From the NCBI GenBank assembly GCA_029239875.1, contig JARBUD010000029.1, positions 1-64,000 on the forward strand: a stretch of 64,000 nt of DNA, written 5' to 3'. Source of the DNA: Xanthobacteraceae bacterium. Its GTDB lineage: Bacteria > Pseudomonadota > Alphaproteobacteria > Rhizobiales > Xanthobacteraceae. Below, in pieces: positions 11,895 to 50,740 of the stretch (position 1 is the stretch's first letter; each line of letters opens with the position of its first letter). A program made the translations under genes and the position numbers. The notes below the pieces were generated by a model, which worked only from the letters and a program-made list of their open reading frames with translations, was not told the DNA's origin and ran no database searches.

Positions 11895-12179
11895 TTCCGA
11901 TTTATCAGCGATTTAGTTCGACGCTCGCAAAAATTTTATCGGGCGATGCGAAAGGTCGCACAACAGCCTTGCAATTTGGACATGAGAGCTATACGAATTC
12001 TGCACGCTCGGTTCCGGGCCGTTGATCCTCTACCGCTTGTTCGGGTTTGACCGCGAATGGCGCGGCAGGGGAAAACGTCGGCCTCTTGATCGGGCGACCC
12101 TTCTGGGCGTTGAGACGGCAGCGAAGACGACCACGCAAGATGGCAAAGCCACGGCGGGCGCATTTTCGGTCCGGCGCAC

Positions 12180-12275
12180 AAAAGAAAGAGACCGCTGACC
12201 TTTCGGCAGCGGCCCAAGTCTAGGGAGGAAACGCCCAAGGAGGGCTGTACGGAGCGACGCCAATCGCTGCGTACG
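12180..12275 (-). ncRNA. Small RNA with anti-Shine-Dalgarno motifs, tandem copy A
   Basis: About 96 nt. In order it has a first hairpin (arms GTACG.AGCGA and TCGCT.CGTAC around TTGGCG), a short hairpin GCCCTCCTTGGGC exposing UCCUU, a single-stranded GUUUCCUCCCUAGACUUG segment, and a terminator stem GGCCGCTG/CAGCGGTC with a GAAA loop followed by TCTTTCTTTT. The CCUCC motifs are complementary to ribosome binding sites. The design and the position beside an inositol-monophosphatase-family gene resemble the alphaproteobacterial suhB/mmgR (alpha-r8) sRNA class; the class assignment is inferred. Confidence 0.75.
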
Positions 12276-12281
12276 AAGCGG

Positions 12282-12310
12282 AAGATGTAGGTGCATTGCG
12301 GAATAATCAA
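12282..12310 (-). promoter_or_regulatory. Promoter of sRNA copy A
   Basis: On the minus strand TTGATT, 17 bp, CATCTT. The predicted start lies about 7 nt downstream, directly before the first hairpin. Confidence 0.5.
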
Positions 12311-12703
12311 GGCAGGCACTGGGATTTTCTGGCATACCAAATACAAATCAGACTCAGTGTTGCATTAATGTCGCTCCGAGAGGTGCGGCAGCACCTATGA
12401 GGGCGACGACTTCCGCTGCGGCGGGCGCTGGTTGAGCCGACGGGGGGTCGCGGCTCGCCGGCGCCCGTTTGCATTTGGCGGGATCGATTTCGCCCAGGCG
12501 CGGGCGCGTCTCGCCGCCGGCACCCTCTCCTCTCCGTATGCACGGTTCTCATGCATCGCTCGATGCCGCTCGCGCGCCTCGCCGGCGATCTGCGTGCGAA
12601 GGGGCGATCGCCCACGGCGCCGGACGAGCCGGCCCGATAGCCAGAAGGCAAGGGTCGCAAGCTGGATGGATGGCGCGTACCCGCCACGATCAGGCGAGGC
12701 CCT
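12311..12703. other. Spacer between sRNA copies A and B
   Basis: 393 bp with no gene I can support. Open frames here have no family features, no ribosome site and Arg-rich composition typical of shadow frames in GC-rich DNA. Confidence 0.5.
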
Positions 12704-12803
12704 GAAAAAGAAAGGGGCCGCTAGCCTTTCGGCAGCGGCCCAAGTCTAGGGAGGAAACGCCCAAGGAGGGCGGCGGCAGGCGACGCCAATCGCGCTGCCG
12801 CAA
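12704..12803 (-). ncRNA. Small RNA with anti-Shine-Dalgarno motifs, tandem copy B
   Basis: About 100 nt, same architecture as copy A. The core from GCCCTCCTTGGGCG through TTTCCTCCCTAGACTTGG to GGCCGCTGCCGAAAGG is identical. The first hairpin uses different arms (GCGGCA.GCGA and TCGC.TGCCGC) around the same TTGGCG loop. The terminator is GGCCGCT/AGCGGCC followed by CCTTTCTTTTTC. Confidence 0.78.
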
Positions 12804-12810
12804 TGCAATA

Positions 12811-12839
12811 TCCATATCCATGCGACATGCGCGTGACAA
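12811..12839 (-). promoter_or_regulatory. Promoter of sRNA copy B
   Basis: Minus strand TTGTCA, 17 bp, TATGGA. Confidence 0.5.
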
Positions 12840-13063
12840 GCGGGAAACGAAAGAAACGAAACCGACTTTTGGTCGCAGGGGGCGCGAATGTCGACAAACG
12901 CGCCTCTCACGCGCCTGTGATCACCGCGCCTCGCGAGACTGCCTATTTCGGAAGCGAGCGTCTCGGGCAGGTCACCGAGGCAGAAGTCCGCCACTCGCTA
13001 GCGCAGACATCTCGTTGCGGAATCGGTCGCCGGAAAGCGCCGAGCCACGCCGTTCCAGGCCCT

Positions 13064-13162
13064 GAAAAGAAAGAGGCCGCTGACCTTTCGGCAGCGGCCC
13101 AAGTCTAGGGAGGAAACGCCCAAGGAGGGCGGCGGCAGGCGACGCCAATCGCGCTGCCGCAC
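13064..13162 (-). ncRNA. Small RNA with anti-Shine-Dalgarno motifs, tandem copy C
   Basis: About 99 nt and nearly identical to copy B through the first hairpin, the UCCUU hairpin and the UUUCCUCCC linker. The terminator GGCCGCTG/CAGCGGCC is followed by TCTTTCTTTTC. This copy is divergent from hisN, with its start about 240 bp from the hisN ATG. Confidence 0.78.
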
Positions 13163-13168
13163 CGCAAT

Positions 13169-13197
13169 AATATGGCAGCTTGCCTTCCCGATAGCAA
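13169..13197 (-). promoter_or_regulatory. Promoter of sRNA copy C
   Basis: Minus strand TTGCTA, 17 bp, CATATT; the predicted start is about 7 nt downstream at the foot of the first hairpin. Confidence 0.55.
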
Positions 13198-13403
13198 CGG
13201 CGAAGCTGCTCATTTCTTCATCTTGCCGGAATAGCAGCCATGCGCTGAGCGCGGGGCGATCCGCTTCACCACCGCTGGCGGCCACGCAGATCTCGCGCAG
13301 ATGCCGTTTGCGAGGGCGCGGAGATTGCCGAGCCCGCCGCCGCCCGATATGCGTTGGCCGGACCGGCGCCGGCGGCCGGCAGTGGCAGCGAGGGGGCGTG
13401 ACG

Positions 13404-14189
13404 ATGGGCGCGGTCGACTTCGAGACTTTCGTGCATGAGCTCGCCAGCGTCTCCGGGCAGGCCATCCTGCCCTTCTTCCGCACCGCGCTCGGCGTCGAGG
13501 ACAAGAGCCGCGGCGCCGCCTTCGACCCCGTCACGGCGGCCGACCGCGCCGCCGAGCAGGCCATGCGGGCGCTGATCCGCCGCACTTTCCCCAGCCATGG
13601 CGTGCGCGGCGAGGAGTTCCCTGACGACGGCACCGACGCCGACTATGTCTGGGTGCTCGACCCGATCGACGGCACCAAGTCCTTCATCTGCGGCCTGCCG
13701 GCCTGGGGCACGCTGATCGGCCTGTGCCACAACGGCCAGCCGGTCTACGGCATGATGCACCAGCCCTTCATCCGCGAGCGCTTCTACGGCGACGGCGCGA
13801 CCGCGCGCTACCGCGGCCCGGCCGGCGAGCGGCGGCTTTCCGTGCGCTCCTGCGCCACGCTCGAGGAGGCGGTGATGCTCACCACCAGCCCGCTACTGAT
13901 GAACGAGGAGAACCGCGCCCGCTATGTCGAGGTGGAGAAGCGCGTGCGCCTGCCGCGCTATGGCGGCGACTGCTATGCCTATTGCATGGTCGCCGCCGGC
14001 AATGTCGATCTCGTCATCGAGACCAATCTCAACGATTTCGACATCCTGCCGCTCATCCCGATCATCGAGGGCGCCGGCGGCATCGTCACCAATTGGGAAG
14101 GCGGCAGCGACCTCGCCGGCGGCCGCGTCGTGGTGGCCGGCGACCGGCGCGTCCACGAAGCCGCGCTGAAGGTGCTGGCGGGCGGCTGA
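13404..14189 (+). CDS. hisN: Histidinol-phosphatase, inositol monophosphatase family
   Basis: 261 residues from the ATG at 13404. The metal-binding motifs are intact: EEFPDDG (about 71-77), VLDPIDGTKSFICGLP (about 90) and the C-terminal DFDILPLIPIIEGAGG (about 212). The GDCYAYCMVAAG block and the compact length favour HisN, the IMPase-family histidinol-phosphate phosphatase of Rhizobiales, over SuhB. The linked FGase gene is consistent. It is cytoplasmic and Mg-dependent. The stop codon TGA abuts the opposing gene's stop (TGATCA). Confidence 0.8.
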   Translation: MGAVDFETFVHELASVSGQAILPFFRTALGVEDKSRGAAFDPVTAADRAAEQAMRALIRRTFPSHGVRGEEFPDDGTDADYVWVLDPIDGTKSFICGLPAWGTLIGLCHNGQPVYGMMHQPFIRERFYGDGATARYRGPAGERRLSVRSCATLEEAVMLTTSPLLMNEENRARYVEVEKRVRLPRYGGDCYAYCMVAAGNVDLVIETNLNDFDILPLIPIIEGAGGIVTNWEGGSDLAGGRVVVAGDRRVHEAALKVLAGG

Positions 14190-50002: not shown

Positions 50003-50167
50003 TGGCGGCCAGCTTTTCTCAGGCGCCGATTCCCCGGCGGCAGGCAGGCACGGGATCATTCTGCCAGCCATGCTGCACTGCCGTGAAGACGCAATAATTC
50101 CTATAGCCGGGCGGCGGGAAACGGCTTAGTGTTTTCGATGGGGAACGATCAAGGCGACCGGATCACA

Positions 50168-50740
50168 ATGGCAAAATCCAACGAACCCGTCACCATCAAG
50201 AAGTACGCGAACCGCCGTCTCTACAATACCGGCACGAGCACCTATGTGACGCTCGAAGACCTCGCGCAGATGGTTAAGAACGGCGAAGACTTCGTCGTTT
50301 ACGATGCGAAGTCCTCGGAGGACATCACCCATTCCGTGCTGACGCAGATCATCTTCGAGCAGGAGGGCAAAGGACAGAACCTGCTGCCGATCAACTTCCT
50401 GCGCCAGATCATCCGTTTCTACGGCGACAGCATGCAGATGCTCGTGCCGCGCTATCTCGACATGTCGATCGAGAACTTCACCAAGGAACAGAACAATCTG
50501 CGCGAGCATTTCTCCAAGACGTTCGGAGTCGGCGGCTTCGGCATGATGGAGGACCAGGTCCGGCGCAACATGGAAATCTTCGACCGCGCCTTCAAGATGT
50601 TCCTGCCGAACGGCCGCGCCGATGAGGCGCCGCCCACCGCGCCCGCGGGCAATCCGGACGATTTCGACGAATTGCGCCGCCAGGTGGCGGAAATGCAGAA
50701 GCGCCTCGACCGGCTCGGCGAAGGCGGCAAGAAGGAGTGA
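50168..50740 (+). CDS. phaR: Polyhydroxyalkanoate synthesis repressor
   Basis: 190 residues from the ATG at 50168; an upstream ATG at 50141 lacks family similarity. The N-terminal DNA-binding domain IKKYANRRLYNTGTSTYVTL (about 10-29) and the PHB accumulation domain IIFEQEGKGQNLLPINFLRQ are classic PhaR, with an acidic coiled C-terminus. PhaR binds PHB granules and phasin/pha promoters. Divergent from phaA. Confidence 0.94.
   Translation: MAKSNEPVTIKKYANRRLYNTGTSTYVTLEDLAQMVKNGEDFVVYDAKSSEDITHSVLTQIIFEQEGKGQNLLPINFLRQIIRFYGDSMQMLVPRYLDMSIENFTKEQNNLREHFSKTFGVGGFGMMEDQVRRNMEIFDRAFKMFLPNGRADEAPPTAPAGNPDDFDELRRQVAEMQKRLDRLGEGGKKE

Follow-up and report, generated by a model that had tools for sequence, protein, structure and literature searches.

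Three tandem alpha-r8 small RNA genes with separately conserved promoters and PhaR-type boxes beside hisN in an Ancylobacter-type genome

Introduction

The alpha-r8 small RNAs (suhB/mmgR, RF00519) are a known family, as are their occurrence in several or adjacent copies and their place opposite a gene of the IMPase family. In Sinorhizobium meliloti, PhaR binds the mmgR promoter at a site of the published form WNWD2NYGCRNYGCRNH2WNW (PMC12542648, accessible text). PHB granules titrate PhaR, and loss of phaR raises MmgR, according to the excerpts of the S. meliloti literature available; further sources drawn on, also as excerpts, are PMC7143759, PMC10746234, PMC8401924, PMC10253847 and PMC10888616. 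In Caulobacter, SisA acts via an anti-Shine-Dalgarno (anti-SD) 10-mer on transporters among others, and adjacent alpha-r8 copies are already in print (both from the accessible part of PMC12559287).

Here we describe a new member of this family, a triplet located in a stretch of 64,000 nucleotides from a soil bacterium of the Xanthobacteraceae (the window). Like S. meliloti MmgR and the Agrobacterium suhB element, its units score above the RF00519 cut-off, share an invariant core and linker, and have their own promoters and terminators; like the suhB element as first described in the excerpted text of PMC1273637, they are transcribed opposite an IMPase-family gene; and like S. meliloti mmgR (PMC12542648, in part), they carry a PhaR box in the core promoter, here predicted from sequence. 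The locus differs from MmgR/suhB in having three tandem copies with three promoters, in an extra 5' hairpin some 30 nt long (the accessible literature puts MmgR at 77 nt), and in boxes that also lie between the -10 and the start. Caulobacter SisA-D resemble the trio as multi-copy siblings with a common anti-SD core, separate promoters and transporters among their targets, but in the accessible part of PMC12559287 they are reported without conserved promoter motifs, whereas PhaR-type boxes occur here. In contrast to the Caulobacter CrfA sponge, no exact-match sponge site was found in the genome, all six genome sites of AGGGAGGAAAC being the antisense strands of alpha-r8 copies. A likeness extends to NfeR1 (alpha-r14), AbcR (alpha-r15) and the CcsR/cuckoo RNAs, which, in the partial texts at hand, combine CU-rich anti-SD motifs with several copies and uptake or stress functions. 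Assignment to the alpha-r14/cuckoo RNAs was rejected, as their loop motif CCUCCUCCC is absent from the three units, and so was a CcsR/CIN1 locus, given the separate promoters and no DUF1127 gene among the four neighbours scanned.

Results

An earlier note, made from the letters of the window, had described three tandem minus-strand units with an identical core and suggested that they fit the suhB/mmgR (alpha-r8) class. Both statements are borne out by the repeats, the fold and the Rfam search, in which three minus-strand matches of full model length, the sole RF00519 matches in the window, all exceed the curated cut-off of 41 bits (E values 3.7e-13 to 8.4e-11 with 11900-13400 scanned alone). 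No Rfam family besides RF00519 rose above its cut-off in the region, whether 11900-13400 or the window was scanned. The matches coincide with three direct repeats of 105 nt at 12180, 12706 and 13065, of which the first is 77% and the last 95% identical to the middle copy. The alpha-r8 identity of the following units is thus well supported.

13065..13162, minus strand: sRNA copy P1, hisN-proximal, predicted transcript with estimated start (fold; RF00519 at 13059-13137, 65.2 bits)
12706..12803, minus strand: sRNA copy P2, middle, predicted transcript with estimated start (fold; RF00519 at 12700-12778, 66.6 bits)
12180..12276, minus strand: sRNA copy P3, distal, predicted transcript with estimated start (fold; RF00519 at 12174-12252, 57.3 bits)

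The predicted fold runs from a 5' hairpin through a CUCCU-looped hairpin and an unpaired linker with UUUCCUCCC to a GAAA-looped terminator, and the core GCCCUCCUUGGGC-GUUUCCUCCCUAGACUU is identical across P1, P2 and P3. The 5' hairpin is common to P1 and P2, while that of P3 is built on another outer stem, which also pairs. The anti-SD linkers, located by fold and site search, are:

13107..13117, minus strand: anti-SD linker GUUUCCUCCCU of P1
12748..12758, minus strand: anti-SD linker of P2
12222..12232, minus strand: anti-SD linker of P3

The hairpin and unpaired UUUCCUCCC linker of RF00519 are present by model alignment and fold and, with the rest of the core, are invariant in 48 aligned Ancylobacter-type copies. 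The middle hairpin never varies and therefore contributes no covariation evidence. The terminator stem, however, contains six pairs with both sides changed, a score reached by none of 500 shuffles, so that a conserved structure in relatives is upheld; the 5' hairpin folds stably in 48/48 copies. In the relatives L040 and L055, sRNA copies carry insertions or changes inside the otherwise conserved middle hairpin, and in L015 a piece of terminator sequence is seemingly repeated directly downstream of the P2 terminator.

The trio sits between an N-formylglutamate-deformylase-like gene (end 11894) and hisN (start 13404), the latter confirming by TIGR02067 the IMPase-family neighbour noted earlier. 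The host genome is Ancylobacter-type, and its HisN shares 90% identity with the Ancylobacter moscoviensis protein. The neighbours scanned (n = 4) encode HisN and N-formylglutamate-deformylase-like, lysophospholipase-like and CpdR proteins. The phaR, phaA and phaB genes lie 34-38 kb from the trio, in keeping with the roughly 35 kb given before.

13404..14189, plus strand: hisN, histidinol-phosphatase of the IMPase family, divergent neighbour (TIGR02067, 318.2 bits, cut-off 275.15)
50129..50740, plus strand: phaR (aniA), candidate repressor gene (TIGR01848, 154.6 bits, cut-off 109.45)

Each unit is preceded by a -35/-10 pair with the 17-bp spacing reported in the earlier note, and this geometry is kept at every position in 16/16 Ancylobacter-type loci.

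13169..13197, minus strand: P1 promoter, -35 TTGCTA (13192-13197), N17, -10 CATATT (13169-13174), read from sequence; TTGnnn-N17-(-10) in 16/16 relatives
12811..12839, minus strand: P2 promoter, -35 TTGTCA (12834-12839), N17, -10 TATGGA (12811-12816), read from sequence; geometry in 16/16 relatives
12282..12310, minus strand: P3 promoter, -35 TTGATT (12305-12310), N17, -10 CATCTT (12282-12287); TTGATT-N17-CATCTT in 16/16 relatives
12845..12861, minus strand: P2-specific upstream element TTTCGTTTCTTTCGTTT, kept with variants upstream of P2 in aligned relatives
12329..12340, minus strand: P3-specific upstream palindrome TTGGTATGCCAG, which most of the 16 listed relatives also have at P3, with variants

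The hexamers, their conservation in 16/16 loci and the terminator covariation agree with the earlier view that each unit has its own promoter and terminator. A generic sigma-70/terminator scan returned no promoters and one of the three terminators, because the hexamers bear little likeness to the E. coli consensus and C residues interrupt the U tracts; comparison with relatives was used instead. The palindrome TTGGTATGCCAG upstream of P3 may be GntR-operator-like. Across 17 genomes, promoter identity between orthologues at the three positions was 0.754, 0.708 and 0.810, as against 0.566 between different positions of the same genome and 0.571 across genomes, which is background.

PhaR-type boxes were scored with a matrix of 19 PhaR sites from EMSA-efficient S. 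meliloti promoters, that of mmgR excluded, and 63,980 window positions were ranked. The three promoter boxes, and one upstream of phaR itself, are:

13152..13172, no strand assigned: PhaR-type box at P1, between the -10 and the estimated start, core TGCGGTGCG (score 12.95, rank 2 of 63,980)
12793..12813, no strand assigned: PhaR-type box at P2, between the -10 and the estimated start, core TGCATTGCG (score 10.0, rank 4 of 63,980)
12286..12306, no strand assigned: PhaR-type box at P3, between the -35 and the -10, core CGCAATGCA (score 20.99, rank 1 of 63,980)
50068..50088, no strand assigned: PhaR-type box upstream of phaR itself (score 9.51, rank 6 of 63,980)

Rank 5 in the window (score 9.61) belongs to an additional PhaR-type site, at 12164-12184, that overlaps the P3 unit at its tail. 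The scores at P1 and P2 (12.95, 10.0) are well below those of most S. meliloti training sites (mostly 14-31, lowest 3.6), and that at P2 is also below the control-zone 99th percentile (11.0). The published 21-nt consensus has a single exact match in the window, at P3, and at least one match in 14 of 60 shuffled windows; the P1 box deviates from it at two positions and the P2 box at more than two, both ranking high by matrix. With one match, the exact consensus was too strict to serve as the sole test. A relaxed pattern, TGCRNYGCRSMA, has three window matches, all in the three promoters, and was not used as evidence because it was relaxed after the sequences had been seen and is at chance level window-wide (shuffle mean 3.6).

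The association extends to relatives. Of 121 copies (one of 122 was left out before the count for runs of N or nearness to an end), 117 carry a YGCRNYGCR box in their promoter zone and four have none; among upstream control zones, 41 of 363 carry one. Two or more boxes occur in 50/121 copies and in 0/363 controls, and in 41 of the 44 single-copy loci. Median best matrix scores were 15.6 in these promoter zones and -4.9 in the upstream zones, 111/121 promoter zones exceeding the control 95th percentile and 106/121 the 99th. In a set hand-picked from the top of the order-wide RF00519 genome list (20 loci, each from a different family), a box stood at one or more copies in 18; by site, the count was 19/24 versus 4/45 controls, and five of the 45 controls had a matrix score above 10. 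Shuffles kept a box in all three promoters in 33 of 5000 cases; conservation at P1 and P2 could be partly that of the RNA, since these boxes overlap the estimated RNA start. As a positive control, the only Phasin_2 gene found (L118, G000 contig 8) has two PhaR-type boxes (28.8 and 11.6), and two PhaR boxes are likewise found at S. meliloti phaP1 and phaP2 (PMC12542648, in its accessible part). The two at L118 apparently flank its -35. Searches of one open-access library returned no paper recognised as reporting such boxes at the promoters of alpha-r8 genes outside S. meliloti, and no priority is claimed.

The triplet is present in 25/25 genomes of the genus (24 others and the host), as three matches within about 3 kb. 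By motif scan, 80 named hisN loci comprise 16 with three copies, 15 with two, 44 with one and five with none; several of the genus genomes are the same assemblies as named loci, and the two sets are therefore not independent. The three-copy loci (L009-L024) are 13 named Ancylobacter, strain 501b, one MAG and Bosea sp. 117; two-copy loci are mostly from Xanthobacter, Aquabacter and Azorhizobium, and elsewhere in the Xanthobacteraceae the hisN loci carry one copy or two. Loci scanned without a copy are L041, L048, L051, L067 and L085, all except L067 offering fewer than 750 bases before hisN. In L020-L023 the P2-P3 gap is widened to about 1.7-2.4 kb, and in L020 and L021 it holds ORFs of 80-178 aa in which no gene was recognised. 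Order-wide, 178/199 genomes have an RF00519 match at E <= 0.001 and 162 have one above cut-off, with a further tandem triplet in G134, contig 59; weak matches need care because the same search also gives a match in Thermus (14 control genomes).

At E <= 0.001, RF00519 matches the host genome eight times, in five cases above cut-off. Dispersed copies account for two of these five, and none of the five dispersed copies has a promoter box. Two dispersed alpha-r8-like copies, L004 (G000 contig 25, 111004-111084) and L008 (contig 50, 3377-3453), share near-identical upstream DNA and the exact linker and are without a PhaR-type box (scores -5.3 and -9.3). L006 (G000 contig 31, 8935-9017) is a weak RF00519 match of 33.8 bits without the CCUCCC linker, and a weak match akin to it, 81-87 nt long and perhaps a different RNA, is seen in many other genomes of the genus.

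The 17 genomes also showed that terminator halves are more alike within a genome than expected (identity 0.826 versus 0.790; 0/5000 permutations). The core is slightly so (26/5000), and the 5' hairpin is not (1704/5000). The terminator loop common to the window's own copies is absent from the other 16 loci compared. These patterns are most simply read as sequence exchange among the copies, downstream of promoters that stay distinct. Regarding the earlier suggestion of dosage control or promoter-specific regulation, the latter is a better fit than dosage by itself, since the promoters are unlike one another and each is conserved at its position.

Candidate targets were sought as complements of the anti-SD linker at ribosome sites. 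In the host genome, GGGAGGAAA stands 1-9 nt before an ATG at 13 sites, and the pattern read backwards at none. Seven of the 13 genes encode solute-binding proteins (10 of the 13 proteins were scanned with Pfam): three TctC, one NMT1 (13 nt of complement), Peripla_BP_4, SBP_bac_1 and DctP. Control SDs of the same genome gave at least 3/19 solute-binding proteins among the Pfam families listed. In 24 other genomes of the genus, 23 with a match, GGGAGGAAAC marked 98 stretches, with one site entered twice (L174 = L283), and the removal of 10 ORFs below 60 aa left 88. Of these, 25/88 were solute-binding-like by phmmer and about 27 or more by Pfam among families listed. The control SD AAGGAGAAAC, with 5 of 54 removed, gave 1/49 by phmmer and at least three by Pfam among families listed. 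Counted by clusters the difference is much weaker: 14/57 (16 with two assigned by eye) versus 1/21 for the control (3/21 by Pfam, families listed).

A complement of at least 8 nt was found in 11/26 TctC genes and in 0/43 window genes (p 4e-6), and a match of at least 7 nt in 19 of the 26 TctC genes for the RNA's complement versus one for the 16S complement, which was shorter (20 vs 27 nt); TctC genes are paralogs, and these counts are therefore not independent. The complements at ribosome sites of many solute-binding-protein genes are suggestive of targets, as a lead and not as proof. The phasin leader contains no long exact complement to the RNA, and phasin mRNA was rejected as a target, as its duplex of -25.5 kcal/mol consists of scattered long-range pairs. 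The PHB link proposed in the earlier note thus gains from the PhaR-type boxes at all three promoters and finds no such support in the phasin leader.

Discussion

Considering the computed family, structure, promoters, PhaR-type boxes, copy history and homogenised terminator halves, we think it probable that the locus consists of three independent trans-acting alpha-r8 sRNA genes with their own sigma-70-type promoters and terminators, encoding PhaR-repressed, PHB-released anti-SD RNAs that restrain solute uptake. PhaR control of the trio promoters is a prediction drawn from the DNA. Translation would be blocked by pairing of the RNAs, via the CUCCU loop and the UUUCCUCCC linker, to Shine-Dalgarno regions, with Hfq probably taking part and with solute-binding-protein mRNAs (TctC, TRAP, ABC) presumably as the main targets. 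Free PhaR, in cells without stored PHB, would repress all three promoters, and PHB granules would titrate PhaR and release them. As the RNAs would repress uptake proteins and PHB would release the RNAs, stored carbon would damp further uptake. The differing upstream elements would give each copy a response to a further signal.

Several other explanations bear on separate parts of this proposal. That the units are a cis-acting hisN leader or a protein-coding region is extremely improbable: they lie upstream of hisN and are crossed by chance ORFs, but the RF00519 matches run on the other strand from hisN, every unit has a promoter and a terminator to itself, the core does not vary, and the loops show the conservation of an RNA. 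We also find it unlikely that the triplet serves dosage only, with redundant copies raising one RNA under a single common control. Identical cores, terminator halves homogenised within genomes and a PhaR-type box at all three copies would suit such a role, yet promoter identity across positions stays at background, as opposed to 0.71-0.81 between orthologues, and the upstream elements vary by position. It is somewhat unlikely that the alpha-r8 assignment is right while the TGC-N3-GC boxes are sites of a different regulator or stem from a constraint on the RNA 5' end. The overlap of the P1 and P2 boxes with the estimated start is consistent with that possibility, as is the shortness of the motif, which recurs in 41/363 control zones. 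However, the P3 box, and one of the two boxes in most single-copy relatives, lie between the -35 and the -10, outside the transcript; and another regulator would have to be reconciled with the binding of S. meliloti PhaR to mmgR at such a site (PMC12542648, accessible text) and with the same box occurring twice at the host phasin gene.

Alternatively, the RNAs might act chiefly on PHB genes (phasins), as has been suggested for S. meliloti MmgR, the solute-binding signal being only a habit of ribosome sites. Such a target set would agree with the higher phasin and PHB of the S. meliloti mmgR mutant, as given in the excerpted literature, and TctC paralogs may inherit their ribosome sites. We nonetheless judge it improbable, considering that the host phasin leader is without a long exact complement, that TctC ribosome sites are a far closer fit to the complement of the RNA than to that of the 16S, and that Caulobacter SisA mainly affects transporters (PMC12559287, as far as its accessible part reports).

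The preferred reading, PhaR-repressed RNAs acting on solute uptake, may extend beyond this genome. Tentatively, we put forward as possible an order-wide, granule-gated uptake brake, tripled here as one RNA on three separately wired promoters. PhaR would repress alpha-r8 RNAs at boxes lying, in many cases, on either side of the -10, and the RNAs would repress solute-binding-protein mRNAs at the ribosome sites. In S. meliloti, 30% of the PhaR-activated module 6 are transport proteins, and a box was found in only seven activated genes (PMC12542648, from its accessible part). A double negative, in which PhaR represses the RNA and the RNA represses uptake, would explain why PhaR seems to activate transport proteins there with a box in so few activated genes.

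Conclusions

If this proposal is true, carbon storage would be joined to nutrient uptake through one RNA step, and MmgR-type RNAs would gain a target class other than phasins. The locus would also be an example from nature in which a single RNA is driven by three promoters, each conserved separately, and the terminator halves remain alike.
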